From: Streptomyces sp. NRRL F-2664
GTDB lineage: Bacteria > Actinomycetota > Actinomycetes > Streptomycetales > Streptomycetaceae
Assembly: GCF_000719345.1 (NCBI RefSeq)
Contig: NZ_JOFX01000030.1
Span: forward strand, 1-64,000
Length of the DNA stretch: 64,000 bases
Direction of reading: 5' to 3'
The translations under genes and the position numbers were made by a program. The notes under the pieces are model-generated. The model saw nothing but the letters and a program-made list of their open reading frames with translations, was not told the origin of the DNA and did no database searches. The first letter of the stretch is position 1. Every line of letters starts with the position of its first letter. Below are positions 17,806 through 49,027 of the stretch, one piece after another.

Positions 17806-17851
17806 GCCGTTGAGGCTTCATCTTGACCGGTTCCCGCATGGACGCGGGCAT

Positions 17852-17895
17852 CACAACGGCGCCATCGTGGTCAGGTCCACGACGGCGCCGTTGTG
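17852..17895. terminator. Bidirectional terminator hairpin
   Basis: A 19-bp stem with one mismatch (17852-17870 with 17877-17895, loop TCAGGT) between the convergent PPOX gene and the mini-Rieske gene. Confidence 0.75.
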
Positions 17896-17938
17896 TGGGG
17901 GTAGCACCTGAGCGATCTGGAACGACGGGGGAATCGCT

Positions 17939-18507: not shown

Positions 18508-18636
18508 GGTCGGCTTCGTCCTCACTTGATGGAATCCTCTCCCCCGCGTGTCAGACGATGGCTCATTCAGGCACGTCAATGCCACAGGGACGATGCATCA
18601 TGTTCTTGCATGTTCAGGACCCTGGGGGGTGGAGAT

Positions 18637-19683
18637 TTGACGCGAAACCAGACAAAGGCGACACATCCCCACCCCGTCACGTCCATGTGCGCCGAGGGAA
18701 CCCGGCTCTATGCGGCTGCCCTGAGCACCGGCCGGATCGCCCGGGGAGAGATCCAGAACGCCCCCTGCCTGCTGGAACTCGCCCTTCTGCAGCCCGACCC
18801 GGATGACGCGAACCAGCTCCGCCCGGTTCCCCCGGCCGTGGCGTTGGCGCAACGGCTCCACCCGATTGAACGCGAGATCCAGGATCGCCGACGCAGCGCT
18901 GTAGATCTCACCGACACTTTCGAGCCTTTCCTGGCCATCAGCGCACAGAGCCCGGCCAACACCCATGCCATCACGGTGCTGGAGGGTTTCGAACGGATCA
19001 ACGCCGCTTTGAACCTCGCGACGGCCGAATGCCACACCGAGGTGCTGACGGTCCAGCCGGGCGGAGCGCGGCCCTCCGAGGCCCTCACCCAGGCCCTGGA
19101 GCGCGACCAGCCGCTGATCGACCGCGGGGTCAGCATACGGACCCTCTACCAGCACACCGCACGGCACAGCCAGGGCACGCTCGCCTACGTGGACCGGATC
19201 TCCACCGGCAAGGTCGAGATCCGCACGCTCGAAGAGCTGATAGAGCGCCTCATCATCTTCGACCGCACCGTCGCCTTCATCCCGGTGAGCGACGACCGGC
19301 GGGTCGCGCTGGAACTGCGCCACCCCGGCCTCGTCGACTACCTCATCAAGGTCTTCGAGCAGCTGTGGCACCGCGCCGTGCCGCTCACCGAGGAGGTGAC
19401 GTACCGCAGCACGCCCGGCGGCGTCACCGGCGTGCAGCGCACCATCGCCCAGCTCCTGGTCGAGGGGCACGTGGACGAGGCCATCGCCCGCCGCCTCGGC
19501 ATGAACGTGCGCACCTGCCGCGCCCACATCGCCAAACTCGCCAGCACCCTCGGCAGCGGCAGCCGCGCCCAGCTCGGCTACCTCATCGCCCAGTCGGGCA
19601 TCCTGGGCCGCCCCACGGCCCCCCAGGACTGCGAACACGCCGGCGCGGGCCACGACCCCCATTTGGACGCGGAAGGGCTCTAG
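18637..19683 (+). CDS. LuxR-type HTH regulator, peptide cassette 1
   Basis: About 348 residues. A C-terminal LuxR/GerE HTH is clear at the end: TIAQLLVEGHVDEAIARRLG, then MNVRTCRAHIAKLASTLGSG and SRAQLGYLIAQSGIL. The upstream 200 residues contain LYQHTARHSQGTLAYVDRIS and FDRTVAFIPV, a sensing region shared with the regulator at 48.0-49.0 kb and reminiscent of TrmB-like effector domains. The start is uncertain: TTG at 18637 gives an N-terminus of the same length as the paralogue; ATG at 18685 is the conservative alternative but lacks a ribosome site. It is transcribed away from the DTGWT peptide, sharing a 129-bp region with two copies of CATGTTC. Confidence 0.8.
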   Translation: MTRNQTKATHPHPVTSMCAEGTRLYAAALSTGRIARGEIQNAPCLLELALLQPDPDDANQLRPVPPAVALAQRLHPIEREIQDRRRSAVDLTDTFEPFLAISAQSPANTHAITVLEGFERINAALNLATAECHTEVLTVQPGGARPSEALTQALERDQPLIDRGVSIRTLYQHTARHSQGTLAYVDRISTGKVEIRTLEELIERLIIFDRTVAFIPVSDDRRVALELRHPGLVDYLIKVFEQLWHRAVPLTEEVTYRSTPGGVTGVQRTIAQLLVEGHVDEAIARRLGMNVRTCRAHIAKLASTLGSGSRAQLGYLIAQSGILGRPTAPQDCEHAGAGHDPHLDAEGL

Positions 19684-19697
19684 AAGGACCGGAGAAA

Positions 19698-19736
19698 GCC
19701 CTCGGGCCCCGCCCGAGGGGGGCGGGGCCCGAGGGC
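19698..19736. terminator. Bidirectional terminator between LuxR gene and hspR
   Basis: A 16-bp perfect stem (19698-19713 with 19721-19736) in the gap between convergent genes. Confidence 0.8.
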
Positions 19737-19777
19737 CTGCGTGCGTCCGGGCGTCCCAGGACGGCGCGTCCGACCGG

Positions 19778-20248
19778 TCAGTCCTTGGGCCGCTTGGGGC
19801 TCGGGCGCCAGACGACCAGGGCGCTGCCCGGCTGCGGGGGCTGGTACGGGACCAGGTCGCGCCGGTACGAGGCGTGCACCTGGGCCTCGCGGGCCCGCAG
19901 CGTGGCGGCGGCGCCGTCCACCGCGGCCGAGAGCTCGGCGACGCGCTGCTGGAGCGCGGCCACCTGGTTCTCCAGTTCGATGATCCGCTTGATGCCCGCC
20001 AGATTGATGCCCTCGTCCTGGGACAGCGCCTGCACCGTGCGGAGCAGCTCGATGTCCCTGGCCGAATAACGCCGTCCGCGGCCGGCCGTGCGGTCCGGGG
20101 AAACCAGGCCCAGGCGGTCGTACTGGCGCAGGGTCTGCGGATGCAGGCCGGAGAGCTGGGCGGCCACCGAGATCACGTAGACCGGGGTCTCGTCGGTGAG
20201 CTGGTAGGCACCGCTTCCCGGACGGGGCTGTCGTCGGCGGCCGTCCAT
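19778..20248 (-). CDS. hspR: heat-shock repressor HspR (MerR family)
   Basis: A 156-residue MerR-type repressor: PVYVISVAAQLSGLHPQTLRQYDRLGLVSPDRTAGRGRRYSARDIELLRTVQ is the winged HTH, followed by a coiled coil (residues 75-105) and a basic tail. Known HspR binds HAIR repeats with DnaK as co-repressor. It is the last gene of dnaK-grpE-dnaJ-hspR with one base between dnaJ stop and its start. HAIR sites are found upstream of dnaK and clpB in this window, completing a local autoregulated circuit. Confidence 0.97.
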   Translation of the reverse strand: MDGRRRQPRPGSGAYQLTDETPVYVISVAAQLSGLHPQTLRQYDRLGLVSPDRTAGRGRRYSARDIELLRTVQALSQDEGINLAGIKRIIELENQVAALQQRVAELSAAVDGAAATLRAREAQVHASYRRDLVPYQPPQPGSALVVWRPSPKRPKD

Positions 20249-20249
20249 G

Positions 20250-21428
20250 TCATGCTCCCTTCGCGGACTCGAACAGCGCGGAGCGCGGGTCCTGCGACTC
20301 CGTCGCCTCGCGGTACATCTCCAGTGCCTCGCGTGCCTTGTCGGACAGCTCGGTCGGAACCGCGACCTCCACGGTGACCAGCAGGTCCCCGCGGGTGCCG
20401 TCCTTGCGGACCGCCCCCTTGCCGCGGGCCCGCATCGTACGCCCGTTCGGGGTGCCCGGGGGCAGTTTCAGCGTCACCGAAGGCCCGTTCAAGGTGGGGA
20501 CCTTGATCTCGGCGCCCAGCGCCGCCTCCGCGAACGTCACCGGGACGGTCACCGTCAGGTTGTCGTCCTTGCGGCCGAACACCGGGTGGGTCCCGACGTG
20601 CACGACCACGTAGAGGTCACCGGCGGGGCCGCCGCGCTCGCCCGGGGCGCCCTTGCCGCGCAGCCGGATCCGCTGGCCGTCCGAGACCCCCGCCGGGATC
20701 CTGACCTGCATGGTGCGGGAACTGCGGGCCCGACCGCTGCCCTTGCAGACCTCGCAGGGTGTCTCCGCGATCAGGCCGCGGCCCTTGCAGTCCGCGCAGG
20801 GGTCGGTCAGCGAGAAGCCGCCGCCGCTGCCCCGCGAGACCTGGCCGGTGCCGACGCAGGTCGGGCACACCCGGGGCGTGCCGTTCTTGTCGCCGGTTCC
20901 CGAGCAGGCCTTGCAGGGGGCCTGGGAGGACATCCGGAGCGGGACCGTGGCCCCGTCCACCGCCTCCGTGAAGGAGAGGGTCACCTCCGACTCCACGTCC
21001 TGGCCGCGGCGCGGCTGGGTGCGGCCTCCCGCACCCGGGCCGGTCCCGCGGTTGAAGAGCCCGCCGAAGACGTCGCCCAGGCCGCCGCCGAAGCCGCCGG
21101 CCTGACCGCCCTGCTGGGTGCCCCCGAAGAGGTCGCCCAGGTCGAAGTTGAACGATCCGCCGCCGCCCGGCCCCGGGCGGAAGCCGCCGTTGCCGAACAG
21201 CGCGCGCGCCTCGTCGTACTCCTTGCGCTTCTTGGCGTCGCCGAGGACGTCGTTCGCCTCGGAGATCTCCTTGAAGCGCGCCTCGGCGGAGGCGTCGCCC
21301 TTGTTGGCGTCCGGGTGGAACTCGCGCGCGAGCTTCCGGTACGCCTTCTTGATCTCGGCCTCGGTCGCGTCCTTCGGGACACCGAGAACCTTGTAGTAGT
21401 CCTTCTCGACGAAGTCCTTCGTGCTCAT
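20250..21428 (-). CDS. dnaJ: chaperone DnaJ
   Basis: A 392-residue type I J-protein. The J domain (residues 8-75) carries HPD in AREFHPDANKG; a Gly/Phe-rich region follows (about 90-145); then four zinc motifs CKACSGTG, CPTCVGTG, CADCKGRG and CEVCKGSG, and the C-terminal substrate-binding domains. It stimulates DnaK ATPase and delivers substrates. It is third gene of the dnaK operon, 39 bases after grpE. Confidence 0.97.
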   Translation of the reverse strand: MSTKDFVEKDYYKVLGVPKDATEAEIKKAYRKLAREFHPDANKGDASAEARFKEISEANDVLGDAKKRKEYDEARALFGNGGFRPGPGGGGSFNFDLGDLFGGTQQGGQAGGFGGGLGDVFGGLFNRGTGPGAGGRTQPRRGQDVESEVTLSFTEAVDGATVPLRMSSQAPCKACSGTGDKNGTPRVCPTCVGTGQVSRGSGGGFSLTDPCADCKGRGLIAETPCEVCKGSGRARSSRTMQVRIPAGVSDGQRIRLRGKGAPGERGGPAGDLYVVVHVGTHPVFGRKDDNLTVTVPVTFAEAALGAEIKVPTLNGPSVTLKLPPGTPNGRTMRARGKGAVRKDGTRGDLLVTVEVAVPTELSDKAREALEMYREATESQDPRSALFESAKGA

Positions 21429-37341: not shown

Positions 37342-38619
37342 TCAGGCTGCCGCGGCCTCGGCCGAGGGTCTGGCCTCCGCCCGTACGGCTCCCGCCCCCG
37401 TCCCGGGAGTCGTCCGCGGCCGGTGGTGGCGCGCCACCACGGAGCCGCCCAGCGCGAAGAGCGTCATGGTCGCCGCCACGCTCCAGAACCCGGCGCCGAG
37501 CGAGGCAGCGGCGAAGTGGCCCACGACCGGCATGAGGACCGCCGTGCCCAGGCCGATGGCGAGCAGCCGCAGGGACGCCATCTTGGCCTTGTCGCCCTCG
37601 GCCGCGTACTGCTGGAGCGAGGTCAGCAGCCAGGTGAGGCTGTTGAGATTGGCGAAGCCCGCCAGGAAGAAGGCGGCGAAGTGCACCGCGCCCGTCCCGC
37701 TCAGCGCCAGCAGGGCAGCCGCCGCGGCCTGGCCGAGCAGCCACACCGGCAGCAGGCGCTGCGAGACCAGGTACCGGGTCAGGAACGAGGCGCTGATCAT
37801 TCCGGCCGCGAACGTGGCCTCCAGCGCCGCCACGTACCAGCCCCGGCCCCCGTGGAACTCGGCGGTCAGGGGGATGACGAGGGTGCTCAGGCCCTGGGCG
37901 AAGACGAAGTCACCACCGCACAGGACGATCACGAGGAAGACGGTCCGGTCGCCGCGGTAGCGGACCAGCATCCCCCGCCACTCGCCCACCGTCCCCGCCA
38001 CGGCCCGGGACAGCAGGCGCGCCGACAGGGGCGGATTGCCCTCGTCCACCGTCAGGCGGATCCGACTCACCGCCACGGCGCAGCACAGTGACATCAGGAT
38101 GTCGATCACCAGGGCGTGTTCGGCGGTGCCCCAGGTCAGGATCAGCCCGAGGAGAGCCATCCCGGTCAGCGCTCCGGCCTGGAAGGCCACACCGATCATG
38201 CTGTTGAAGCGGGTGGCGTGGGCCCGGTCCACATGGTGCGCGGTCAGCTTGAACAGTGCCGACCGCTCGACGTTGTCGAAGACGGCCAGCAGCGCGGACG
38301 CCGCCACGATCCAGGGCACCGCGGCGGTGCCCGGTATCAGGGCCGCGACGCCCACGATCAGCAGGACGGTGCCGGCCCGGCCCAGCCCGCACAGCGCGTA
38401 CACCAGCTTGGAGTTGAGGGCGTCGACCAGCGGTCCGCACACCGGCAGGACGCACAGGGCCGCCACGCCCTGGAGGGTCAGTACGAACGCGAAGGCGGCC
38501 GGGCTGCCGGTACGGTCGTAGAGCAACTGCCCCATGGCCAGCGTGTGGATGCCGACGCCGATGCTGGAGAGGGTGATCGCACCCAGCATGGTGCGCGCGA
38601 CCCGGTCGTTCCTGAGCAT
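37342..38619 (-). CDS. MFS transporter
   Basis: A 425-residue transporter with 12 predicted helices, beginning MLRNDRVARTMLGAITLSSIGVGIHTLAMG. The pattern (RTGSPAAFAFVLTLQGVAALCVLPV in TM2-3, VDRAHATRFNSMIGVAFQAG in TM5) fits the MFS drug-efflux group that includes macrolide/MFS_3 exporters. Its ATG overlaps the stop of the adenylating enzyme gene by one base (TGATG), so it is the last gene of the biosynthetic operon, and the likely product exporter or self-resistance protein. Ends in an Ala/Glu-rich tail. Confidence 0.85.
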   Translation of the reverse strand: MLRNDRVARTMLGAITLSSIGVGIHTLAMGQLLYDRTGSPAAFAFVLTLQGVAALCVLPVCGPLVDALNSKLVYALCGLGRAGTVLLIVGVAALIPGTAAVPWIVAASALLAVFDNVERSALFKLTAHHVDRAHATRFNSMIGVAFQAGALTGMALLGLILTWGTAEHALVIDILMSLCCAVAVSRIRLTVDEGNPPLSARLLSRAVAGTVGEWRGMLVRYRGDRTVFLVIVLCGGDFVFAQGLSTLVIPLTAEFHGGRGWYVAALEATFAAGMISASFLTRYLVSQRLLPVWLLGQAAAAALLALSGTGAVHFAAFFLAGFANLNSLTWLLTSLQQYAAEGDKAKMASLRLLAIGLGTAVLMPVVGHFAAASLGAGFWSVAATMTLFALGGSVVARHHRPRTTPGTGAGAVRAEARPSAEAAAA

Positions 38620-40445
38620 CAGAGCGCCACCCCGTCCAAGCGGCGGTCGATGACGTTCTTGACCTTGCCGCTGACGGAGTTGCGCGGCAGCTCGCCCTCT
38701 GCCGTGCAGACGATCCTGAGCTCGTACGCGTCCAGCGCCGCATCGAAGTCCTGGAAACCGCCCAGCACCGGGAACTCCTTGACGAGCAGCTCGCGTACGG
38801 CCTCGGCCTCCGGCGGGCAGGGGGCTTCGGTGCGGATGGTCAGGATCTCCCGGCTGCCCTCGGTGGCCACCTCGATCTGGAGCTGCGAGACCTCGAAGGC
38901 GGCGAGCGCGTCGAGGACCTCGCCATAGAGAACCGTTTCACCCTTGAAGCGGACCAGTCCGTCGGAACGGCCCAGGTACTCCAGCACCCGTCCCGACACC
39001 CCGCAGGCGCAGTGGTGCTCGTAGGTGCGCCCCATGTCGCCGATGCGGTAGCGGATCAGGGGGCCCTCGAACTTCTGCAGGCCCGTGACGAGAAGGTGAC
39101 CCGTGACGCCGTCCACGACCGGTCGGCCGGCCTCGTCCACGACCTCGATGAGGTTGTAGTCGTCGTTGACGTGGTGCACGGTGCCGCCGAGGAAGCCGCA
39201 CTGGTACCCGAGCTGCGCGCCGTCGTTCGCGGCGAGGATGCTGGACACCACACGGGCCCCCAGCTCCTGGCGCAGCCAGGTCTTGTCGGTCTCGGTCATC
39301 GGGGTGCCGCCGTAGATCACCTTCTCGACGCGCAGCCCGGGGCGGCGCTTCTTGGCGTCGCGCAGCAGCGGCAGGATGAGGGCGGGCATGCCGAGGATCA
39401 CATTGGCGTCGAAGCGCCCGGTGAGCATCAGCAGGTCGTCCACGGTCACGAACTGCGCGGTCGAGTACGACTCGACGGGCATCCGGGACAGCTCGCTGAA
39501 GGTCGTGGTCAGCCCGCCGTACATGCCGCCGCCGAACAGCGTGTTGATGACGCGGTCGCCCGGCGCGAGCCCGAGCGCGTACAGCATGGGGATGGCCTCA
39601 CGGACCATGTTCTCCCAGTCGGAGCGCGAGTAGACGATGTAGCGCGGCTCGCCGCTGGTCGCGCCGGAGCGCAGCACCTCCCCGGTGGCCGGATCCCCAC
39701 TGCTCAGGTCGCGGCTCGCGGGCAGCGAGTGTGCCTCCAGCTCGGACTTCTCCAGTATGGGGAGCCCGGCGAGACCGGCGTCCTCGGTGATGTCGGGCAG
39801 GTCCCCGTAGTACGGGGTGCGCCGGGCGCGGGCCACGAGGTACCGCAGGCGCGCCGCGAGCCGCCCGCTCCGCCGGTCGCCGTCCTCGCTGCGGATGCGG
39901 GCCAGGGACACGCCCGCCAGGTGCCGGCGCTGGAAGAGCCCGTACGCCCAGCCCGCCCCGCAGTCGACGGCGAGGTCCGCGTCGGCCGGCAGCGCGGGGA
40001 CCTCCAACGGCTGCCCGGGCGCGTCCGCGCCGGGCCCGGTCACCTGCCCCGTCGGCAGCGGTACCCCGGCCTCCCGCAGCGCCGACATCACCTCTTCCCA
40101 CAGCTGGGGCCGTGCCGACCGTACGGTGACCCGGTTGCCCAGGGCCCATGCGAGCAGCAGACCGCGCAGGGTCGCCTCGGCCAGCCGGTCGTCGAGGACG
40201 ACGGTGCCCACCGGGGACAGCTCCAGGACGTCGTCGCTGTCGGCCAGCGGCTGCCAGGGGTACTGGCTGACGCCGCCGAGGAGCCGGTCCAGCCCTTCGA
40301 AGAGCCGCCGGCTGTCGAACCGGCGCAGCGGATCCGCCACGCCGGCCTGTCGCAAGGCCGCGTCGAGCGGGGCGAGGGCGCCGGAGGTGAGGGCGCGCTC
40401 GACGTGTTCGACGGCCAGCAGGAGGTCGGTGGGGTAGTGCCTCAT
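38619..40445 (-). CDS. PaaK/LuxE-like adenylating enzyme with LuxC-like N-terminal region
   Basis: A 608-residue protein. Residues 225-600 make a phenylacetate-CoA ligase/LuxE-type adenylation fold: RSGATSGEPRYIVYSRSDWEN, INTLFGGGMYGGLTT, ILGMPALILPLL, KVIYGGTPMTET, GEVLDA and the C-terminal VSGKVKNVIDRR. Residues 65-150 (VLELSPVGTVVLDDRLAEAT, LRGLLLAWALGNRVTVRSARP) resemble the nucleotide-binding region of LuxC acyl-CoA reductases but no catalytic Cys is seen. So a LuxC remnant fused to an acyl-activating domain is inferred. It probably activates a carboxylic acid for the KASIII or ATP-grasp partner. The gene starts 58 bases after the aminotransferase stop and overlaps the MFS gene by one base. 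Confidence 0.72.
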   Translation of the reverse strand: MRHYPTDLLLAVEHVERALTSGALAPLDAALRQAGVADPLRRFDSRRLFEGLDRLLGGVSQYPWQPLADSDDVLELSPVGTVVLDDRLAEATLRGLLLAWALGNRVTVRSARPQLWEEVMSALREAGVPLPTGQVTGPGADAPGQPLEVPALPADADLAVDCGAGWAYGLFQRRHLAGVSLARIRSEDGDRRSGRLAARLRYLVARARRTPYYGDLPDITEDAGLAGLPILEKSELEAHSLPASRDLSSGDPATGEVLRSGATSGEPRYIVYSRSDWENMVREAIPMLYALGLAPGDRVINTLFGGGMYGGLTTTFSELSRMPVESYSTAQFVTVDDLLMLTGRFDANVILGMPALILPLLRDAKKRRPGLRVEKVIYGGTPMTETDKTWLRQELGARVVSSILAANDGAQLGYQCGFLGGTVHHVNDDYNLIEVVDEAGRPVVDGVTGHLLVTGLQKFEGPLIRYRIGDMGRTYEHHCACGVSGRVLEYLGRSDGLVRFKGETVLYGEVLDALAAFEVSQLQIEVATEGSREILTIRTEAPCPPEAEAVRELLVKEFPVLGGFQDFDAALDAYELRIVCTAEGELPRNSVSGKVKNVIDRRLDGVAL

Positions 40446-40503
40446 GAGATGTCCTCGTCATAGGGGTGGGTGACTGCCGTACCGCTCGGCGCGGTCGCGT
40501 CCT

Positions 40504-41799
40504 TCACAGCTGTGCGGCGATCACCGCGGCCAGCCGGCGTACGCCTTCGTCGATCAGCTCCGCCGACGGGTACGAGAAGGACAGCCGCAGGTGCCGGGTG
40601 CCGCGGCCGTCCGTGTAGAAGCCGGTGCCCGGGACGAACGCGACGCCCGCCGCCAGCGCGTGGGGCAGCAGTTCGCGGGAGTCCAGGCCCTCGGGGAGCG
40701 TCACCCAGACGAAGAACCCGCCGTCCGGGACGGTCCACGACACCCCGGCGGGCATCGAGAGGGAGAGTGCGCGGAGCATGGCGTCCCGCCGGGTGCGGTA
40801 GCCCGCGCGGAACCCGCCGAGACGTTCCTGCCACGGCTCGGTGCGCAGGTAGCGGTCCACGGTGAGCTGGGCGAGTGCCGAGTGGGAGAGCATGGCGCTC
40901 TCCGCGGCGAGCACGAGCTTGGCGGTCAGGGCGGCCGGTGCGTGCACCCAGCCCACCCGCAGGCCCGGTGCCAGTGTCTTGGAGAAGGATCCGAGGTAGA
41001 CCACCCGGTCGGGGTCGTCGGCGCACAGGGCCCGGGTGGGAGCGGCGTCGTAGTGCAGCAGGCCGTACGGGTTGTCCTCCACCACGAGGACCCCGGCCCT
41101 GCGGCAGACCTCCAGGATGTGGGCGCGGCGGCCCGCCGGGACGGTGGCGCCGGTGGGGTTCTGGAAGGTGGGGACGGTGTAGAAGAACTTCGCGGGCCGC
41201 CCCTCGGCCGTCAACCGGTGGAAGGCCGCCGCCAGTTCGTCCGGGATCACCCCGGCGCGGTCCATGGCGACCTGCACGACCCGGGCGCCGGCCGCCTTGA
41301 AGGTACCGAGGGCGGTGACGTACGTGGGGCCCTCGGTCACCACCGTGTCCCCCGGGTCGAGCAGGACCCGGGCCAGCAGGTCCAGGGCCTGCTGGGAGCC
41401 CACGGTGACCATGACGTCCTCCGGGCGGGCGGAGATCCCCTCGGCCGCCATCACGGAGCAGATGCTGTCCCGCAGTCCGGGGTCGCCCTGCGCCGACCCG
41501 TACTGGAGTGCCGTCGGGCCGTGCTCGCGCACCACATCGGCGAGGATCCCGGCCATGGTCTCCGGCGGGAGGGCGGAGACGTCCGGCATGCCGCCCGCCA
41601 GCGAGACGATGCCGGGGAGGGCGGCCACGGAGAAGAGGGAGCGGACCTCGGAGGGCACCATGGCGTGGGCACTGCGGGAGAAGTAGCGCTCCCACGCGAC
41701 CGGACCGGGGCAGCGACCCCGCGTCCCCGGCTCCGCCGCCCGGGTCGGCGGGTCCGCCGGCGCGGTCGGTGCCGGTTCGAGTTCCATGGGCAGGCGCAT
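40504..41799 (-). CDS. PLP-dependent aminotransferase (class I/II, MocR-C domain-like)
   Basis: A 431-residue fold-type I aminotransferase of the 2-aminoadipate/valine-pyruvate type: ALQYGSAQGDPGLRD, VTVGSQQALDLLARVLLDPGD, YTVPTFQNPTGATVPAGRRA, VVEDNPYGLLHYD and the PLP lysine in YLGSFSKTLAPGLRVGWVHA. AGGAG precedes the ATG at 41799, which overlaps the stop of the preceding gene by one base. In the operon it likely makes or removes an amino group of a precursor alpha-keto acid; the substrate is unknown. Confidence 0.88.
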   Translation of the reverse strand: MRLPMELEPAPTAPADPPTRAAEPGTRGRCPGPVAWERYFSRSAHAMVPSEVRSLFSVAALPGIVSLAGGMPDVSALPPETMAGILADVVREHGPTALQYGSAQGDPGLRDSICSVMAAEGISARPEDVMVTVGSQQALDLLARVLLDPGDTVVTEGPTYVTALGTFKAAGARVVQVAMDRAGVIPDELAAAFHRLTAEGRPAKFFYTVPTFQNPTGATVPAGRRAHILEVCRRAGVLVVEDNPYGLLHYDAAPTRALCADDPDRVVYLGSFSKTLAPGLRVGWVHAPAALTAKLVLAAESAMLSHSALAQLTVDRYLRTEPWQERLGGFRAGYRTRRDAMLRALSLSMPAGVSWTVPDGGFFVWVTLPEGLDSRELLPHALAAGVAFVPGTGFYTDGRGTRHLRLSFSYPSAELIDEGVRRLAAVIAAQL

Positions 41800-42377
41800 C
41801 AGGGTCTCCTGGGGTGGGAAGGGCGGGCGGTCTCGGTGGCGTCGGTGGCCCCGGCCGACGCCAGCAGCCCCACCGTGTAGTCGCGCAGGACCGTGTCCTG
41901 CCGTGCGTGCAGCAGCGTGACGTCCTTGTGCGGACCGTTCGGGCCCCGGGTGATCAGGCACGCCGCCTGCTGCCGCAGCGTGTACGGCTGCGCGGCCGTG
42001 GCGTGGAAGGCCGCCGGGTCGGCCCGGGCCAGCTCGGCCCATTCCCGCTGGTCCTCGCCGAGTGCCGTACGGGCCAGGTTCAGCAGATCGGAGGCGCACA
42101 GCCCGGTCCGCAGCCCCTCCGCCTCGATGCCGCCGGCCGTGGTGGTGAGGTTCACGCAGACGGGACCGTCTGCGGGGCACTGCTCAAGGACCGCCGCCAG
42201 TGCCGTCTCGACGGCCCAGTCCTGCTCCGCCCCTTTCCGCGGCAGCAGCAGGGCTCCCGGGAACTCGCACGCATGTTCCTCGGCGGCGGTCCCCCGTACG
42301 CTCCAGATGGCGCAGACCCGTTGGGCGGAACCGAGCGTCACGATGCTGATGTGCAGTCCGGTGCGGACGTGTGCCAT
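41799..42377 (-). CDS. hypothetical protein, RNase H-like/actin-like fold suspected
   Basis: A 192-residue soluble protein of no family I recognise. It begins MAHVRTGLHISIVTLGSAQR, and contains the stretches EFPGALLLPRKGAEQDWAVE and PADGPVCVNLTTTAGGIEAEG. Two Cys-containing strands (VCAIWSV, ACLITRGP) are visible, without metal motifs. Being embedded in the operon by a one-base overlap with the aminotransferase and 15 bases from the MDR gene, it should act in the same pathway, as an enzyme or accessory protein. The fold suggestion is weak. Confidence 0.55.
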   Translation of the reverse strand: MAHVRTGLHISIVTLGSAQRVCAIWSVRGTAAEEHACEFPGALLLPRKGAEQDWAVETALAAVLEQCPADGPVCVNLTTTAGGIEAEGLRTGLCASDLLNLARTALGEDQREWAELARADPAAFHATAAQPYTLRQQAACLITRGPNGPHKDVTLLHARQDTVLRDYTVGLLASAGATDATETARPSHPRRP

Positions 42378-42392
42378 GGAACCCTCGCTCGC

Positions 42393-43433
42393 TCAGGGGG
42401 TGTGGTCGGGAGCCGGCTCCGGGTCGGCCGGGCCCAGCCGTACGACCGCCTTGCCGGTGTTCTCGCCGCGCAGCATCCCGAGGAAGGCGTCGACGGTCCG
42501 CTCGAAGCCTTCGGTCACGCTGAGCCGGTCGGTGATCCGACCCGAACGCAGGTGCGGGACCAGGAAGTCCTCCAGCTCTGCTTGCGCGTCGCGGTGACGG
42601 GAGACGAGGAAGCCCTCCAGCCGGATGCTCTTCTCCACGAGGTCGAAGAGATTGCGCGGGGCCGCCGGGGCGCATCCCGTGTTGTACTGCGCGATGGCTC
42701 CGCACCAGGCGATCCGCCCGTCCTCGCGCATCGCCCCGATCGCCGCCTCCAGGTGGTCGCCGCCCACGTTGTCGAGGTAGACGTCGATGCCGTCGGGCGC
42801 CACCCGGGCCAGCTGCTCGGACAGGGAAGGTCCGGCGCGGTGGTCGAAGGCCGCGTCGTAGCCGAGTTCCTCGGTGAGCAGCCGGACCTTCGCCGGGGAA
42901 CCGGCGCTGCCGACGATCCGGCCGGCCCCCAGCAGCTTGGCCAGCCGGCCGGCCGCCGTCCCGACGCCGCCGGCGGCTGCCGAGACGTACACCGTCTCAC
43001 CGGCCCGCAACCGGGCGACACGGGTCAGCGCGACATACGCTGTCAGGCCCGTACCACCGAGCAGCCCGAGGAAGGACTCGGTGGCGACGCCCTCGTACCG
43101 GGGCAGGACGCGCGCCTCGGCTTCGGACACCACGGCGTGGGTCCGCCAGCCCTCCCGGTGGAACACCACGGCCCCGACGGGCAGTCCGGCGCTGCGCGAC
43201 TCCACGACCCGGCCGATCGAACGGCCCTCCAGCGGAGCGCCGAGCTCCCACTCCGCGTCCATGGCCTCACGCATGTACGGATCCACGGAGAGCCACAGGT
43301 TCTCCACCACCGCCTGGCCCTCGGCCGGCGCCGCCAGGGGCAGCTCCGCCTCGGCGAAGTCCTCGGGTACGGGCATGCCCCGGGGCCGGCGACGCTGCGT
43401 GATCAGCCGTGTGGTGCGGACCGGGGCGCTCAT
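42393..43433 (-). CDS. zinc-independent MDR oxidoreductase (CurA/LTB4DH family)
   Basis: A 346-residue medium-chain dehydrogenase/reductase. NADPH-binding Rossmann motif is VSAAAGGVGTAAGRLAKLLG; family motifs are NLWLSVDPYMREAM, DVYLDNVGGDHLEAAIGAM and IRLEGFLVSRHRD. No zinc-ligand Cys cluster is seen, and this group reduces C=C bonds of enones or 2-alkenals. ATGA overlap with the ATP-grasp gene. In the operon it is a candidate for reducing an enone or enoyl intermediate. Confidence 0.87.
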   Translation of the reverse strand: MSAPVRTTRLITQRRRPRGMPVPEDFAEAELPLAAPAEGQAVVENLWLSVDPYMREAMDAEWELGAPLEGRSIGRVVESRSAGLPVGAVVFHREGWRTHAVVSEAEARVLPRYEGVATESFLGLLGGTGLTAYVALTRVARLRAGETVYVSAAAGGVGTAAGRLAKLLGAGRIVGSAGSPAKVRLLTEELGYDAAFDHRAGPSLSEQLARVAPDGIDVYLDNVGGDHLEAAIGAMREDGRIAWCGAIAQYNTGCAPAAPRNLFDLVEKSIRLEGFLVSRHRDAQAELEDFLVPHLRSGRITDRLSVTEGFERTVDAFLGMLRGENTGKAVVRLGPADPEPAPDHTP

Positions 43434-44629
43434 GCCGCCACCTGCCGGGCCGGGGCGGTGCGGACCGAGACCGCGCGGGTGCACTCCTCCAGGAACCGGC
43501 GCAGCTCGTCCGCGTCGGTGTGCGATGCCTCGATGAACACCGGAACCTCCCACTCCTGGTAGGTGATGTGGCGCGGGGTCTCCTGGTCCGGCGCGAGGAC
43601 GTGGAGGACGTCCAGGCACGGATGGGTCCTGATCCACTCGGGTACGTCGACCGCCCGCACCTCGTCGGCCGCCAGGTGGTGGCCGGGGAAGGCGAGCCAG
43701 CCGTGGTGACGGCCGCTGGGCGGGCCGGCCGGCGGCCGGTCCAGGCCGAGCCGGACGGCGATCTCGTGCGAGGGCAGGTGCACCCCGGTGTGCAGCTCGT
43801 GCGTGGAGACCACGGCCGCGCCGCCCATCCGGTTGGCCACCTCCAGGAAGACCAGTTCGCCGGTGGCCGTCTCGAAGAACTCCAGGTGGATGCAGCCCTC
43901 CTCGATGCCGAGGACCTTCACCACCTGCTCGGCGAGGGTGCGCTGGGCGGGCGTGCACGGCTCCTGGTGCGAGCCGAGCGGGGTTCCGTGCGCGTACTCG
44001 ACCGGCTTGTTGACGTACCGGCTGACCGCGAGCTCGACCAGCCGGCCGCCGTCCACCAGCCCGTCGGCGTGCAGGATGTCGCCGTCGATGTGCTCCTCCA
44101 GCTGGAACTCCCCGGGGTCGGTCAGCCGCCCGTGGGCGTCGAGCGCCTCACGGGCGGTCGCGTGGACCGTGACGTCCTCGCTGGACGCGCCCTGGCGCGG
44201 CTTGAGGACCGTGCGCCCGGTCCACGGCAGGGTGCCGTCCGGCGCGGGCCCGGCGGCGAACCGGGGGTGGCGCAGCCCCGAGCCCGCCAGCGCTTCCTTC
44301 ATCCGCACCTTGTCCCGCACCCGCTCGACGGCGGCGAGGTCCGGGCCCTCGATGCCGAGGTGGCGGCGTACGTGGCAGGCTTCGACGATGCCGAACTCCG
44401 AGAGCGAGAGCACCTTCTCGTAGCCGTCGGCGGGCGAGGTGCGGGCGAGGATCCCGGCGACCAGGTCCTCGTCCGGGTCGAGGGTGATCCGCCGCGCGGG
44501 CAGGCCGTCGGGGAGGTCTGCCATCCGGTGCGGGTGCCCGATGTAGGTCACCTCGTGGCGGTCGTGGTCCAGGCCGCGGTCGTAGCCGATCTTCCGGTAC
44601 GGAACCTGGTGAATGACGAGGATCTTCAT
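43430..44629 (-). CDS. ATP-grasp ligase
   Basis: A 399-residue ATP-grasp enzyme of the amino acid ligase type. The N-terminus MKILVIHQVPYRKIGYDRGL is a Rossmann start, then the ATP-grasp core: VRDKVRMKEALAGSGLRHPRF, VLKPRQGASSEDVTV, ILHADGLVDGGRLVELAVSRYV and the Mg/ATP site IHLEFFETATGELVFLEVANRMGG. Activates a carboxylate as acyl phosphate and joins it to an amine, giving an amide or dipeptide. Overlaps the KASIII gene by 4 bases (ATGA) upstream and the MDR gene downstream. Substrates unknown; in a pathway with 5-aminolevulinate synthase it is a natural amide-forming step. Confidence 0.88.
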   Translation of the reverse strand: MKILVIHQVPYRKIGYDRGLDHDRHEVTYIGHPHRMADLPDGLPARRITLDPDEDLVAGILARTSPADGYEKVLSLSEFGIVEACHVRRHLGIEGPDLAAVERVRDKVRMKEALAGSGLRHPRFAAGPAPDGTLPWTGRTVLKPRQGASSEDVTVHATAREALDAHGRLTDPGEFQLEEHIDGDILHADGLVDGGRLVELAVSRYVNKPVEYAHGTPLGSHQEPCTPAQRTLAEQVVKVLGIEEGCIHLEFFETATGELVFLEVANRMGGAAVVSTHELHTGVHLPSHEIAVRLGLDRPPAGPPSGRHHGWLAFPGHHLAADEVRAVDVPEWIRTHPCLDVLHVLAPDQETPRHITYQEWEVPVFIEASHTDADELRRFLEECTRAVSVRTAPARQVAA

Positions 44630-45585
44630 CCGAGATACTCCAAGGTCGTAATGCCCCAGCTGAAGCCCATCGCGCTGGTGGCGAGCATGATGAGGTCGCC
44701 GTGCCGCAGCCGGTCCCCGCGTTCGAGGTCTTTCAGCGCGATGAGGGTGTCCGCTCCGCCCATGTGGGCCAGCCGGTCGTAGTTGAAGACGCTCCGGCCG
44801 GCCGGGATGCCCAGGCGGGCCAACAGCCGCTGGTGCATGTCACGGTCGCCGTGGTTGATCAGGAAGTGGGCGATGTCCCCCGGCGTGATGCCGAGTGCGG
44901 CCACCGTCTCGTCCACCAGGGCGGTGAAGTGCCGTACGTAGGCGTCTGCGAGGCCCCTGCGGTGCTCGGCGCGCCGGATCAGCACGCGTCCGTCCGTCAG
45001 CTCACCGGCGTAGTAGTCGGCCCAGCTGCCATCGGTGCGCATCGCCGAGTGGACGACACGGAAACGGCTCGGACCGCCGCCCAGCAGCACCGCCGCAGCC
45101 GCATCACCGAGGTTGAACAGAGCCTTGGAATCGGGGTCACGGTAGTCAACCATCCGGCTCAGCCGGTCCCCGACGAGGACCAGCGCGTACGTGTTCTCGT
45201 CCAGGGCTCCCGCGGTGGACAGGAGCCGGATGGCGGTCATGCCCGCGTTGCAGAAGTTGGCCACCTCGAAGCAGTGGGCGTCCTCGATGCCGAGGGCGTG
45301 CGCCACCTTCGCCGCGGGCGACCAGAAGGGCCGGTCCCAGGCGCCGGACCCGGCGTAGACCACCTGCCGGATCCGGTCGGGGGCCACCGCACTGCGGTCC
45401 AGGACCGTCCGGGCGGCGGCGAGGGCGAGCTCCCAGGCGTTCTCGCCCTCCGCGAGCACCGGGAAGGTTGCGCAGTGGGTGATCCGCGCCAGGTCCGCGA
45501 GGGGGACGCCCGAGGCCGCGGACATGGCCCGGATGTCGGCCCTCGCGGAGGGGAAGGCCACGTCGAAGTCGGCTATGCCGCCCAC
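44626..45585 (-). CDS. KASIII-like (FabH family) enzyme
   Basis: A 319-residue thiolase-fold protein of the KASIII type. The active-site Cys lies in EVANFCNAGM (residue 112, where E. coli FabH also has Cys112), and the His in FLINHGDRDM (residue 245). The third canonical residue, Asn in a GN motif, is replaced by G-G-A at HMGGADT. It starts at a GTG (45585), overlapping the dioxygenase stop. FabH relatives of this type act as acyltransferases, C-O/C-N bond formers or starter condensing enzymes. Its partner is likely the ALAS product or an acyl unit from the adenylating enzyme. Confidence 0.8.
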   Translation of the reverse strand: MGGIADFDVAFPSARADIRAMSAASGVPLADLARITHCATFPVLAEGENAWELALAAARTVLDRSAVAPDRIRQVVYAGSGAWDRPFWSPAAKVAHALGIEDAHCFEVANFCNAGMTAIRLLSTAGALDENTYALVLVGDRLSRMVDYRDPDSKALFNLGDAAAAVLLGGGPSRFRVVHSAMRTDGSWADYYAGELTDGRVLIRRAEHRRGLADAYVRHFTALVDETVAALGITPGDIAHFLINHGDRDMHQRLLARLGIPAGRSVFNYDRLAHMGGADTLIALKDLERGDRLRHGDLIMLATSAMGFSWGITTLEYLG

Positions 45586-46427
45586 TTCTCGCCCTCTTCG
45601 ATGCTCACCCGGTGCACGGTCCGCGTGGCACCGGGGTCGACCGCGGTGGCCGCGTGGTAGGTCGTCGCCGTCTTCCACACCACCAGGTCGTTCGTCGTCC
45701 AGCGGTGGGTGTAGACGTGCTCGGGGTCCTGGATGAGCCGGTCGATGAGGGCGAAGAACTCCGCGTTCTCGTTGGCGTCGAAGCCCACGACGGAGTCCAT
45801 GTACTCGGGGGCGCCGTAGAGGTACGGACGGCCGGTGGCCGGGTCGTGCTTGACCAGCGGGTGCTCGGTCGGCGGGTACTCCATCTCGACCAGCGCCTTC
45901 AGCTCGGCGATGGAGAGCCCGACGTGCTCGGGGGAGATCCGCTGGCGCTTGCTGACGGTGTGCAGGGCGGTGCGGCCGGCGATCTTGTCCTTCCACTCCT
46001 GCGGCAGCCGGTCGTAGACGTCGAGGGCGCTGGCGTAGAGCGTGTGGCCGCTGGTGGCGGGTACGTCGACGCCGTGCAGCATCGTGTAGGGCGCCGGATC
46101 CTTCATGTACGAGGAGTCCTGGTGCCAGAAGTTGCCGACCCGGGCGACACCGACGGGACGGTTCGCCTTCATGGCGTTGGAGGAGATCATGATCTCCGGG
46201 TGCTCGGGGTGCCGGTACTTGGCCATGAGGAACGGCACGGGCCGGCCGATTCGGGAGGCCAGCTCGATCTGCTGCTCGGGGGTGATGTCCAGGCCCCGGA
46301 CGACGGCCAGTTCGCGGCGCTGCACGATGTCGACGAGCTGGGCGAAGACCTCGGGGTCCTGGAGTTCCTCGTAGCCGACACCGGTCAGCTCCGAGCCGAT
46401 GAACGGGGTGATTTCCTTGATCTGCAC
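45573..46427 (-). CDS. TauD/TfdA-type Fe(II)/2-oxoglutarate dioxygenase
   Basis: A 284-residue dioxygenase. Facial triad: His102 and Asp104 in FWHQDSSYM and the distal His in TTYHAAT (about 258); the arginine for 2-oxoglutarate is in RTVHRVSI near the C-terminus. TauD-like features include QRRELAVVRGLDIT and SGHTLYASAL. Likely hydroxylates or desaturates a pathway intermediate or drives ring or isonitrile formation. The gene sits 40 bases after the ALAS gene and overlaps the KASIII start. Confidence 0.9.
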   Translation of the reverse strand: MQIKEITPFIGSELTGVGYEELQDPEVFAQLVDIVQRRELAVVRGLDITPEQQIELASRIGRPVPFLMAKYRHPEHPEIMISSNAMKANRPVGVARVGNFWHQDSSYMKDPAPYTMLHGVDVPATSGHTLYASALDVYDRLPQEWKDKIAGRTALHTVSKRQRISPEHVGLSIAELKALVEMEYPPTEHPLVKHDPATGRPYLYGAPEYMDSVVGFDANENAEFFALIDRLIQDPEHVYTHRWTTNDLVVWKTATTYHAATAVDPGATRTVHRVSIEEGEKWAA

Positions 46428-46466
46428 GAGCGGATCTCCTTGATTCGGTGAAGTGGTGGGGCTGCG

Positions 46467-47684
46467 CTATCGGATGTCGTCGAGGCAGGCGCGCAGGGCC
46501 CGGACGAATCCCTCGATCTCCGTACGGGTACGGAACGGCGCGACCGTGACCCGGAAGCGCTCGCCCCCCTTCGCCACGGACGGGAAGTTGATGGGCTGGA
46601 CGTAGACGCCGTACTCGTCCAGGAGGCGGCGCGAGATCTTCTTGACCCGCTCACCGCCCGGGACCAGCACCGGGACCAGGTGGGTGGGGGCGTCGATGAA
46701 GTCGATGCGCGCCTCGCGCAGGAGACTGCGCATCAGCGCCGCGTTCTCCCGCAGTTTCAGGCGCAGTTCGGCGCCGGCCGGGCCCTGGATGACGTCAAGG
46801 CTGCGCTGGGTGGCGTCGAGGCTCGAACGGGGGATGGTGGTGGTGAAGATGAATCCGGGCGCGTGGGAGCGGACGTAGTCCAGGGCGGTCTCGGGGCCGG
46901 CGACGTAGCCGCCGGTGGTACCGACCGCTTTTCCGAACACGCCCTGGACGAAGGTCGGACGGTGTTCTCCGATCTCCTCGCATATACCGGCGCCGGTGGG
47001 TCCGTTCACGCCGATCGCGTGCGTCTCGTCCAGATACGTCAGAGCATGGTGGCGTTCGGCCAGATCACAGATTTCGGTGATCGGCGCGATGTCCCCGTCC
47101 ATCGAGTACACGGATTCGAAGACGATCAACTTCGGCTGCTCCGCCGGATATTGGCCGAGCATTTCGTCCAGCGCTTCGACATCGTTGTGCGGGAATATGT
47201 GTCTCCGGTTCTTGGAGGTACGGATTCCCTCGATCAATGAGCGGTGGTTGAGCGAGTCCGAGAAGACCACCATGTCCGGTACGGCCGCGAGCAGGGTGCT
47301 CAGCGTTTCGACATTGGCGACATATCCGCTGGTGAACACCAGGGCACGGTCCTTGCCGTGCCAGGCCGCCAGCCGGGTCTCCAGCGCCACATGGGCCTCG
47401 CTGGTGCCCGCGATGTTGCGGGAGCCGCCGTTGCCGGTGCCGTGCCGCAGCGTCGAGGCGATCTGCGCATCCATGACCTGCGCGTTCTGGCTCATGCCCA
47501 GGTAGTCGTTGGTGCACCAGACCTGGATGCGGCGCCCCTGGTGCATCGCGTGCCCGGGCTGGTCCGCCAGGTACGAGCAGGGGGTGAATTCTCGGTACAG
47601 ACCCGAGCTCTTCAGGTCTTCCAGCCTCTCCTGGAGCCCGTCGAGGACGGGCAGCGGCCGGGCGGAAACGGGAAGGGCGGACAT
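46467..47684 (-). CDS. 5-aminolevulinate synthase-like alpha-oxoamine synthase
   Basis: A 405-residue PLP alpha-oxoamine synthase close to 5-aminolevulinate synthase: HQGRRIQVWCTNDYLGMSQN, GGSRNIAGTSEAHVALE, VFTSGYVANVETLSTLL, YLDETHAIGVNG, and the PLP lysine in QGVFGKAVGTTGGYVAG. It would condense glycine with succinyl-CoA, or a related pair. Streptomyces make their haem 5-aminolevulinate by the glutamyl-tRNA route, so a standalone ALAS gene marks secondary metabolism (e.g. the C5N cyclopentenone or other ALA-derived units). AGGAGAGAC precedes ATG. It is the first enzyme gene of the operon, 56 bases after the small peptide gene. Confidence 0.9.
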   Translation of the reverse strand: MSALPVSARPLPVLDGLQERLEDLKSSGLYREFTPCSYLADQPGHAMHQGRRIQVWCTNDYLGMSQNAQVMDAQIASTLRHGTGNGGSRNIAGTSEAHVALETRLAAWHGKDRALVFTSGYVANVETLSTLLAAVPDMVVFSDSLNHRSLIEGIRTSKNRRHIFPHNDVEALDEMLGQYPAEQPKLIVFESVYSMDGDIAPITEICDLAERHHALTYLDETHAIGVNGPTGAGICEEIGEHRPTFVQGVFGKAVGTTGGYVAGPETALDYVRSHAPGFIFTTTIPRSSLDATQRSLDVIQGPAGAELRLKLRENAALMRSLLREARIDFIDAPTHLVPVLVPGGERVKKISRRLLDEYGVYVQPINFPSVAKGGERFRVTVAPFRTRTEIEGFVRALRACLDDIR

Positions 47685-47740
47685 GTCTCTCCTGTAACTA
47701 GAATTTCGCAATCCGGGGAGGGGGCGGGGAGCCTGCCCGG

Positions 47741-47884
47741 TCAGCCCCACTGCGAGTCGCTCTTGAGGGCGATGACGACGACCTCTTCCCGCTCCGCGGA
47801 TTCGTTGCCCGCGATGACGCCGAGCGTCGCGAGAACGGTCACGGCGAGTGCGCCGAAGAGCTGCCGAAGAGTCGTCTTGAACAT
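47741..47884 (-). CDS. 47-residue secreted peptide ending SDSQWG
   Basis: A very small gene with a strong ribosome site (AGGGGGAACCA, ATG). The peptide has a hydrophobic signal sequence (residues 1-25, FGALAVTVLATLGVIA) then NESAEREEVVVIALK and the end SDSQWG. It is the first gene of the biosynthetic strand, only 56 bases before the ALAS gene, and divergent from a LuxR-type regulator. The C-terminal Trp-Gly next to acidic and Ser/Thr residues recalls the DTGWT repeats of the peptide at 18.25-18.5 kb. It may be a secreted signal, a leader/attenuator-like peptide, or a scaffold whose C-terminus is modified. No known family is recognised. Confidence 0.6.
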   Translation of the reverse strand: MFKTTLRQLFGALAVTVLATLGVIAGNESAEREEVVVIALKSDSQWG

Positions 47885-48019
47885 TGGTTCCCCCTGATCG
47901 AGTTCTGCCCGGGCCAGGTTTCTGTGGCCCGTGACAGGAATCATGTGCCGGTCTTCTCGCCGGGAACAGGGAAATCCGGGAGCATGATCACGCAATGCAG
48001 AGACTTGAAGGATGGCCAA
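47885..48019. promoter_or_regulatory. Divergent promoter region of biosynthetic operon and LuxR regulator
   Basis: A 135-base region between the two start codons. It contains the inverted repeat CGGGCCA-N8-TGGCCCG around 47909-47930, a candidate regulator site. No consensus promoter could be identified by eye. Confidence 0.4.
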
Positions 48020-49027
48020 ATGTGCACGAAAACAGACAGAGGGGTACGTGTTCCACCCGTCGAGCTCTGCGACGAGGGGCTGTCCTTCTACGAGGCAGCC
48101 GTCCGGGGTGACCTCCCGGGGCGGGAATGCCCGCCCTGCCTGCTTGACCTGGGTCTCCTGCGGGAACTGCCCGACGGCCATCTGGTGCCCCTGCCCCCGG
48201 GTCTCGCGGCCAACGCCGTGATGCGCCCGCTGGAGACGGACATCGAGGAGAGGCAGCGGGCCCTGGCGGCGGCCCGTGTCGCCATGCACCGGGCGGACGA
48301 GGTCTACCGCGCCCACGCGGGCGGCGGCAGCGGCAGCGGCATCCGCGCGATCAGCGGCGCGGACTCCATCAGCGCCACGCTGGCCTCGGTCGTGCAGTCC
48401 TGTGAGGAGGAGCTCCTGACCGCCCAGCCCGGCGGCGGCAGGCCGGCGCAACTGCTGGAGAAGGCGCTCGCCAGCGACGTGGCCGCCCTGGAGCGCGGCA
48501 TCCGACAGCGGACCATCTACCAGCACACCGTCCGCTCCCACGCCCCGACGCTCGCCTACGTCGAGGGCGTCTCCGTCGCGGGTGCCGAAGTACGCACCCT
48601 GGACGAGGTGTTCGACCGGCTGATCGTCTGCGACCGGAAGGTCGCCTTCGTGCCCGACCCCGACGCGGAGCGCCAGCAGCTCGCCCTGGTCGTCGAGCAC
48701 CCCGGAATGATCCGCTACCTCGTCGGCATCTTCGACAAGTCGTGGGAGCGCGCCGCGCCCCTGCGGCACACGCCGACCGAGCACCGGCCGCCCCTGCTCA
48801 CCGACGAGACCCGCCGGGCCGTCCTGCACCTCATGGTGAACGGCTACACCGACGAGACCATCGCCGGTCGCCTCGGCATGAGCGCCCGTACGGTGGCCAC
48901 CCACGTCCGCAAGGCCTCGGAGCAACTGGGCAGCCGCAGCCGCGCACAGCTGGCGTACCTCATCGCGAGGAGCGGTCTCCTGGACGAGGACCTGCACACA
49001 CCCGCCACCGAGCCCCGGCGACCCTGA
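48020..49027 (+). CDS. LuxR-type HTH regulator, peptide cassette 2
   Basis: A 335-residue regulator with a C-terminal LuxR/GerE HTH: RRAVLHLMVNGYTDETIAGR, LGMSARTVATHVRKASEQLG, then SRSRAQLAYLIARSGLLDED. It aligns over its length with the regulator at 18.6-19.7 kb, including IYQHTVRSHAPTLAYVEGVS against LYQHTARHSQGTLAYVDRIS and the shared early CLL(D/E)L segment. Early Cys in MCTKT and CPPCLL are a feature. AAGGATGGCCAA precedes ATG. Divergent from the peptide and operon, so it is the probable pathway regulator. Confidence 0.85.
   Translation: MCTKTDRGVRVPPVELCDEGLSFYEAAVRGDLPGRECPPCLLDLGLLRELPDGHLVPLPPGLAANAVMRPLETDIEERQRALAAARVAMHRADEVYRAHAGGGSGSGIRAISGADSISATLASVVQSCEEELLTAQPGGGRPAQLLEKALASDVAALERGIRQRTIYQHTVRSHAPTLAYVEGVSVAGAEVRTLDEVFDRLIVCDRKVAFVPDPDAERQQLALVVEHPGMIRYLVGIFDKSWERAAPLRHTPTEHRPPLLTDETRRAVLHLMVNGYTDETIAGRLGMSARTVATHVRKASEQLGSRSRAQLAYLIARSGLLDEDLHTPATEPRRP

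Follow-up and report, generated by a model that had tools for sequence, protein, structure and literature searches.

Organization of the operon

The DNA analysed here, referred to as the window, is a stretch of 64,000 nucleotides from contig NZ_JOFX01000030.1 of Streptomyces sp. NRRL F-2664. On its minus strand, at 37342-47884, it carries an operon of nine protein genes and a 47-codon open reading frame (ORF). A first-pass annotation, made from the sequence alone, had given ten ORFs on one strand with exactly these ends. In transcription order, the operon comprises the 47-codon ORF (47741..47884), an alpha-oxoamine synthase of the 5-aminolevulinate synthase (ALAS) type (46467..47684), a TauD/TfdA Fe(II)/2-oxoglutarate (2OG) oxygenase (TauD; 45573..46427), a KASIII-like enzyme (44626..45585), a predicted ATP-grasp amino-acid ligase (43430..44629), a medium-chain dehydrogenase/reductase (MDR) of the curcumin/alkenal double-bond reductase type (42393..43433), a stand-alone C-terminal half of an ATP-grasp ligase (41799..42377), a fold-type I, MocR/MppQ-like aminotransferase (40504..41799), a PaaK-like adenylating enzyme extended at its N-terminus by about 180 residues (38619..40445), and a major facilitator superfamily (MFS) exporter (37342..38619). 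Worked by hand from the coordinates, with the KASIII-like gene taken to start at GTG 45585, four of the nine junctions are overlaps of 1-4 bases, as had been claimed for most of them; of the other five, one is a 13-base overlap and the rest leave 15-58 bases between neighbouring genes. The gene for a LuxR-type regulator (47924..49027, plus strand; PF00196, 36.9 bits) is divergent from the operon and paired with the small ORF, and falls outside the range that the annotation had covered.

The families named in that annotation are right at the fold level. Matches above the Pfam cut-off are obtained for TauD (PF02668, 187.4 bits), ACP_syn_III N and C (PF08545 and PF08541), ADH_N_2 and ADH_zinc_N (PF16884 and PF00107), Aminotran_1_2 (PF00155, 121.6 bits), and MFS_1 (PF07690, 67.2 bits). 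The ATP-grasp (PF13535) and AMP-binding matches are sub-threshold, but are backed by solved L-amino-acid ligases and PaaK enzymes. As the annotation had stated, non-ribosomal peptide synthetase (NRPS) and polyketide synthase (PKS) domains are absent; the scan covered the nine operon proteins and the LuxR-type regulator, and negative results for operon proteins below refer to these nine.

The prediction of an amino-acid ligase rests on the L-amino acid ligase structure 4wd3 (E 2e-8) and on a conserved LEVANR..GG-type motif. The protein that the annotation had left as unknown is one half of such a ligase and is probably non-catalytic. The PaaK-like protein has the ANL fold with the glycine-rich loop and C-terminal Lys of an adenylating enzyme (locus L016 was omitted from this alignment, its sequence being cut). 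A likeness of its N-terminal region to LuxC, suspected by eye, found no Pfam match in six pieces beyond one weak chance match. The MDR scores 252 bits on NF058644, below the cut-off of 440, and the aminotransferase scores below the cut-offs of the MocR and MppQ models.

A conserved five-gene core

Related loci (given L numbers) were sought in genome contigs with six short patterns taken from the window ATP-grasp, a scan that finds close relatives and is biased to ATP-grasp loci. Such a search in other genomes had been suggested in the first-pass annotation. Twenty of the 26 loci fetched (L013-L032) share ALAS, TauD, the KASIII-like enzyme, and ATP-grasp, the last by construction, being the scan query. 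Their hosts are Streptomyces, Kitasatospora, Frankia, and Streptosporangium, and three of the loci (L016, L021, and L024) lie on short contigs. Of the six remaining loci, L035 also matches TauD weakly and L038 also has matches to LuxR; otherwise only ATP-grasp relatives were found in them. Among the 20 core loci, PaaK occurs in 18, MDR in 16, MFS in 13, LuxR in 11, the half ATP-grasp in 10, and the aminotransferase in 6. Three flanking genes of the window that were tested are present in 0/20. Pairwise protein distances of ALAS, TauD, KASIII-like enzyme, ATP-grasp, PaaK, and MDR are correlated (r = 0.85-0.97), to which species history also contributes. The grouping is thus not due to chance. 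Five genes, for ALAS, TauD, KASIII-like enzyme, ATP-grasp, and PaaK, form the core, and the aminotransferase and half ATP-grasp are optional. The ten genes do not, as had been assumed, behave as one unit.

The core is also found outside the actinomycetes. A Burkholderia stagnalis plasmid (NZ_CP156687) carries relatives of ALAS (50%), TauD (53%), KASIII-like enzyme (44%), ATP-grasp (42%), and PaaK (40%) on one strand, with the core genes in the same order as in the operon. There, the MDR gene (55%) precedes ALAS, and an annotated MFS gene gives no blastp match to the window MFS.

Two exchangeable modules

The core falls into a building-block module (ALAS-TauD-KASIII-like) and an assembly and export module (ATP-grasp-PaaK-MFS), which can be exchanged. 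The KASIII-like gene is found in 15 and the PaaK gene in 6 of 392 Streptomyces genomes, the own genome counted in both. Ten of the KASIII-like places were taken in longer stretches (contig ends truncate L136 and L143), and seven of the ten have no ALAS match. In L134, ALAS-TauD-KASIII-like-ATP-grasp-MFS occurs with substrate-binding protein (SBP) and MDR matches and without PaaK. In L138 and L143, ALAS-TauD-KASIII-like is accompanied by an S-adenosylmethionine (SAM) methyltransferase, without ATP-grasp or PaaK; L143 also has a SAM synthetase (methyltransferase and synthetase of L143 read by eye). These two sets are perhaps the simplest version of the pathway. An MFS gene adjoins both compact sets (by Pfam in L138, by eye in L143).

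The assembly module occurs separately on linear plasmids of Streptomyces NBC_01006 (L112) and NBC_01343 (L114), which encode relatives of ATP-grasp (60-61%) and PaaK (47-49%) and an MFS gene (54% in NBC_01006). The block adjoins genes for methylaspartate (glutamate) mutase, aspartate kinase, aspartate-semialdehyde dehydrogenase, and an oxygenase, and probably belongs to a sister pathway that uses a unit derived from 3-methylaspartate. A search of the plasmid collection placed the KASIII-like gene in Burkholderia only, and hence on neither NBC plasmid. The first-pass annotation had proposed that PaaK activates an acid for the KASIII-like enzyme. The separability of the modules argues against this, as PaaK occurs on the two plasmids without the KASIII-like gene and ALAS-TauD-KASIII-like occurs without PaaK nearby in L023, L134, L138, and L143. 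In L023, no PaaK match lies within its 21 kb, about 10 kb of which is downstream.

The ALAS, the oxygenase, and the KASIII-like enzyme

With 445.5 bits on TIGR01821, against a cut-off of 338.6, the window ALAS belongs to the 5-aminolevulinate synthase family. Family members bind pyridoxal 5'-phosphate (PLP) through a Lys, an Asp, and a stacking His, and have an Arg in the motif YRxF. The region of the PLP Lys, Asp, and His is invariant, and the YRxF Arg is kept, in 20/20 sequences (window and 19 loci; L032, which is frame-shifted, was omitted from residue counts). An Arg in the motif NHRS is family-wide, being found in the same 20/20 and in 4/4 further ALAS-TauD-KASIII-like loci including Burkholderia, whereas 28/28 other alpha-oxoamine synthases examined have NHAS. 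The same genome encodes glutamyl-tRNA reductase, and the ALAS is therefore not needed for heme. ALAS scores above the family cut-off in 5/100 genomes searched, own genome counted. Both observations bear out the claim that a stand-alone ALAS signals secondary metabolism here.

Alignments of TauD contain WHQD, a distal His, and TRTVHR, corresponding to the HxD...H motif that binds the metal and the C-terminal Arg that binds 2OG. Its closest solved structures are ScoE and 6l86, which we take to be SfaA.

In canonical KASIII/FabH enzymes, the catalytic triad is Cys-His-Asn. In the operon enzyme it is Cys-Asn-His. When the relatives are aligned against a single canonical FabH-type reference, taken from L142, the Cys is kept in 120/120, the canonical His site is Asn in 120/120, and the canonical Asn site is His in 120/120. 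An ungapped alignment to a solved KASIII gives the same exchange. Since the exchange extends to every relative aligned, it is doubtful that the operon enzyme performs canonical Claisen chemistry. The subfamily appears, from its gene neighbourhoods, to serve other clusters too. In L135, L136, and L140, the gene adjoins a luciferase-like monooxygenase, with an adenylation gene in L135 and L136 (identified by Pfam in L135, by eye otherwise). Also by eye, an FkbH-like gene lies nearby in L136 and L140 and a SAM synthetase gene in L136.

The small ORF and the LuxR-type regulator

The start of the LuxR-type gene is uncertain (GTG 47924 or ATG at about 48020). A region of the protein is weakly TrmB-like, with TrmB and DUF7436 matches below their cut-offs. 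Between the LuxR coding region and the small ORF lies a near-palindrome, TTGCGTGATCATGC (47982..47995), which has several invariant columns in a 12-locus DNA alignment and is a candidate operator. The small ORF encodes an N-terminal hydrophobic segment and a C-terminal SDSQWG, as a secreted signal-peptide precursor might.

A LuxR relative is present in 11/20 related loci; in L013, it is located downstream of the MFS gene and only a short fragment is located upstream. In the window and these 11 loci, the ORF upstream of ALAS ends in DSxW[G/D] (12/12). D, S, and W are the sole invariant residues of the 12 peptides, and G is the last residue in 11. No ORF with the W motif lies within 450 bp upstream of ALAS in any of the 8/8 assessable loci without LuxR (upstream sequence in L021 is too short to judge). 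A different small ORF (17609-17800), without a W motif, was seen in L022, of S. griseus type, beside a TPR-containing SARP-type regulator (17812-20874).

LuxR relatives were then searched in the own genome and 60 others, and their loci were examined with a peptide rule, which requires at least one [DEN]xxW[x]-type motif, sought by regular expression, and a hydrophobic N-terminal segment. A nearby W-motif ORF was found at 25/36 LuxR loci (own genome 4/7, other Streptomyces 21/29) and at 0/34 control loci, counts to be read knowing that the rule had been shaped by eye on the same loci and that the controls are ATP-grasp and oxoamine-synthase loci rather than random ones (one too short was left out). 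The 36 are those of 39 fetched, window pair included, that remain without L079-L081, the weakest of the own genome. Eighteen of the 25 ORFs carry at least two motif copies. When the window and 44 longer loci are scanned with this rule, 15 hits fall within LuxR zones, which total 66,060 bp, and 11 fall in the 879,314 bp outside them. One of the latter is the operon family member in L013, another, in L038, resembles a real W-motif ORF when judged by eye, and the others are chance-like ORFs. The NBC_01006 and NBC_01343 loci also have a W-motif ORF, ending in DDMGWG. No NCBIfam or Pfam model reaches its cut-off on the 10 peptides submitted to each, the window peptide being among those run against NCBIfam.

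Two further pairs were observed. In the window, a 91-codon ORF (18250-18525, minus strand) with three DTGWT motifs is divergent from a LuxR-type gene (18616-19608, plus strand). In L105 (2618-2992), a W-motif precursor with nine copies of DSTWx, counted by eye, adjoins a LuxR-type gene; this peptide gives a weak, sub-cut-off match to the thiovarsolin RiPP (ribosomally synthesized and post-translationally modified peptide) model.

Judging from co-occurrence and motif conservation, the small ORF and the LuxR-type gene are candidates for a peptide signal and its regulator. A broader proposal is that they belong to an uncatalogued, widespread Streptomyces class of exported precursors bearing one to nine D-x-x-W-x pentamers (DSQWG here, DTGWT three times in the second pair), each sensed by a neighbouring LuxR-type, TrmB-like receptor. 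Here, the signal would control a modular, NRPS-free pathway whose "KASIII" performs new, non-Claisen chemistry with a permuted triad. We regard this proposal as a real possibility that falls slightly short of an even chance. Literature searches for such a peptide-LuxR pair, assessed by title and abstract opening, gave no description of one, and passages of a review of actinobacterial quorum sensing (PMC4748050) do not mention it.

Proposed pathway and alternatives

From gene content, conservation, module separability, and residue patterns, we infer that the operon makes and exports a small, capped, pseudopeptide-like alpha-aminoketone in two stages under control of the LuxR-type regulator and peptide. 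We put this forward tentatively, as a reading nearly as likely to be right as wrong. In the first stage, ALAS would couple glycine or another small amino acid with succinyl-CoA to give a 5-aminolevulinate-type acid, TauD would oxidise this acid, and the KASIII-like enzyme would add or close an acyl unit via acyl transfer, not by an ordinary malonyl Claisen reaction. In the second stage, ATP-grasp would join an amino acid to the amine, PaaK would activate a carboxylate from which a second amide or ester is formed, and the product would leave the cell through the MFS pump. MDR, aminotransferase, and half ATP-grasp may be lineage-specific additions. The divergent LuxR-type regulator would control expression, probably via a short DSQWG-type peptide cut from the small-ORF product. 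The two-stage scheme is suggested by the five-gene core with its correlated divergence, by the same gene order in Burkholderia, and by the separation of the modules. The catalytic residues kept in ALAS, the glutamyl-tRNA reductase that covers heme, the permuted KASIII-like triad, the ligase similarity of ATP-grasp, and the peptide-LuxR counts are further points in its favour. A peptide-like product would also fit the SBP_bac_5 oligopeptide-type proteins encoded within or close to the cluster in L023, L025, L028, and L030.

Several observations weigh against this scheme. The second stage is not always complete, as the clusters of L023 and L134 have no PaaK match nearby. A second ATP-grasp is weakly matching, of GSP type or circularly permuted, in L025, L026, and L030, and a half protein here; the number of amide bonds may therefore differ between lineages. 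The type of MFS varies between loci. The peptide rule fails at 11/36 LuxR loci and misses L019, one of the 12 operon-family peptides. The order of the steps is a guess. Finally, at what we take to be the glycine-specificity position, ALAS has a Ser that is also found in 3/3 other above-cut-off Streptomyces ALAS. The Ser therefore does not identify the amino acid substrate, and the Thr-to-Ser change was rejected as proof of a non-glycine substrate.

The same Ser bears on an alternative in which ALAS uses serine or alanine and the product resembles the enone compounds alaremycin and primocarcin; TauD and MDR would adjust the double bond, and the KASIII-like enzyme would acylate the amine. The family-wide NHRS Arg hints at a changed active site, and an enone-reductase-type gene is present in 16/20 loci. 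However, the Ser is common to other ALAS enzymes and a GNAT N-acetyltransferase is absent among the operon proteins, and we consider this alternative unlikely, if well worth bearing in mind. Rather unlikely, too, is a C5N-type product, raised as an alternative in the first-pass annotation, for which ALAS would make 5-aminolevulinate, PaaK would activate it, ALAS or the KASIII-like enzyme would close it to 2-amino-3-hydroxycyclopentenone, and ATP-grasp would link this amine to an acid. An ALAS and an adenylating enzyme do share the operon, the known route consists of ALAS, acyl-CoA ligase, and amide synthetase, and the motif GGSR is common to the operon ALAS and the three other above-cut-off Streptomyces ALAS. 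Yet the operon lacks a second ANL enzyme, TauD and the KASIII-like enzyme are not known to have a role in that route, and the 20 kb stretches around the three other ALAS genes (L144-L146) contain no TauD or KASIII-like match. Moreover, the four loci with ALAS-TauD-KASIII-like but no PaaK nearby, and the PaaK-ATP-grasp blocks beside other building-block genes in L112 and L114, indicate that PaaK and ALAS need not occur together.

Two other explanations carry little weight. It is very improbable that the role of ALAS lies in supplying heme or vitamin B12 and that its neighbours are unrelated. The enzyme does score above the TIGR01821 cut-off, as a canonical ALAS would, but the genome encodes glutamyl-tRNA reductase, for which reason heme supply was rejected; above-cut-off ALAS is rare; and ALAS occurs with TauD and the KASIII-like enzyme in L134, L138, and L143 as well as in 20/20 loci of the ATP-grasp scan, although that scan is biased to loci of this kind. 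The small ORF could instead be a RiPP precursor modified by ATP-grasp, in which case the operon product would be ribosomal. In favour of this, the ORF is short, has a conserved C-terminus, and shares its strand with an ATP-grasp gene, and the L105 ORF weakly resembles a RiPP model. Against this, the 8/8 assessable loci without LuxR keep the full ALAS-TauD-KASIII-like-ATP-grasp core with no such ORF within 450 bp upstream of ALAS, and W-motif ORFs elsewhere adjoin LuxR genes. The RiPP reading was rejected on these grounds as improbable. Overall, the observations of the first-pass annotation are confirmed and its interpretation is partly supported.

For the two-stage pathway preferred here, the core defines a searchable set of five genes that spans two phyla and is easily overlooked for want of NRPS and PKS genes. 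Given that the modules are exchangeable, differences in product from strain to strain could be traced to genes. For enzymology, a clear question is posed by the exchange of His and Asn in the KASIII-like subfamily. Streptomyces are known mainly for butyrolactone signals; if W-motif peptides do signal, they would add a peptide-based signal and offer a direct means of activating silent Streptomyces clusters.

Comparison with known systems

The metal HxD and C-terminal Arg of the isonitrile-forming enzymes ScoE and 6l86 are kept in the operon TauD, but two of the three active-site tyrosines of ScoE-type enzymes are replaced in the alignment. The operon TauD scores 152.2 bits on the ScoE isonitrile synthase model NF049937, compared with a cut-off of 400, and the glycine-adding partner of those systems is not seen in the operon. 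Among L-amino acid ligases, RizA is a sequence relative of the operon ATP-grasp, and BacD, 3vot (B. licheniformis), and RizA have the same fold as the half ATP-grasp; sequence identity to the operon proteins is low. The small ORF resembles precursors of Gram-positive peptide pheromone systems in being short, hydrophobic near the N-terminus, and conserved in its C-terminal pentamer, and in lying beside a regulator gene. It differs in that the regulator is LuxR-type and weakly TrmB-like and that relatives carry multiple copies of the D-x-x-W-x motif.

The C5N cassette, which accompanies polyketide clusters, depends on two ANL enzymes, an acyl-CoA ligase and an amide synthetase. The operon shares with it a stand-alone ALAS in Streptomyces secondary metabolism, but contains only one AMP-binding-type protein, matched below threshold, and hence not the second ANL enzyme of the three-enzyme route. 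The locus from Streptomyces olivoreticuli ATCC 31159, a strain that we presume to be linked to bestatin, was considered as well, but bestatin seems a poor match to the gene content. In ketomemicin biosynthesis, an alpha-oxoamine synthase and a peptide ligase give a carbonylmethylene pseudopeptide, with aldolase and amidinotransferase steps and with no known TauD, KAS, or PaaK. In the operon, an alpha-oxoamine synthase is likewise paired with a predicted ligase; the aldolase and amidinotransferase are absent among its proteins. The C5N cassette is named, for asukamycin, ECO-02301, and similar compounds, in PMC9239090, and the ketomemicin pathway in PMC11906848 and PMC11943689.

Literature searches aimed at the cluster, assessed mostly from titles and abstracts, gave no characterised cluster with this gene set. 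The dynaplanin cluster dynVWXYZ is likewise small, free of NRPS and PKS, and built round a stand-alone PLP-dependent alpha-oxoamine synthase, and was, according to the abstract, missed by the usual genome-mining tools (PMC9239090). It uses arginine and phenylacetyl-CoA and a GNAT acyltransferase, and no TauD, KAS, ATP-grasp, or PaaK is named for it in the same portion of the paper (PMC9239090). The GNAT partner is absent from the operon, as are all the defining partner genes tested for dynaplanin and ketomemicin. The nearest published logic is that of dynaplanin and ketomemicin, namely small clusters assembled round stand-alone alpha-oxoamine synthases.

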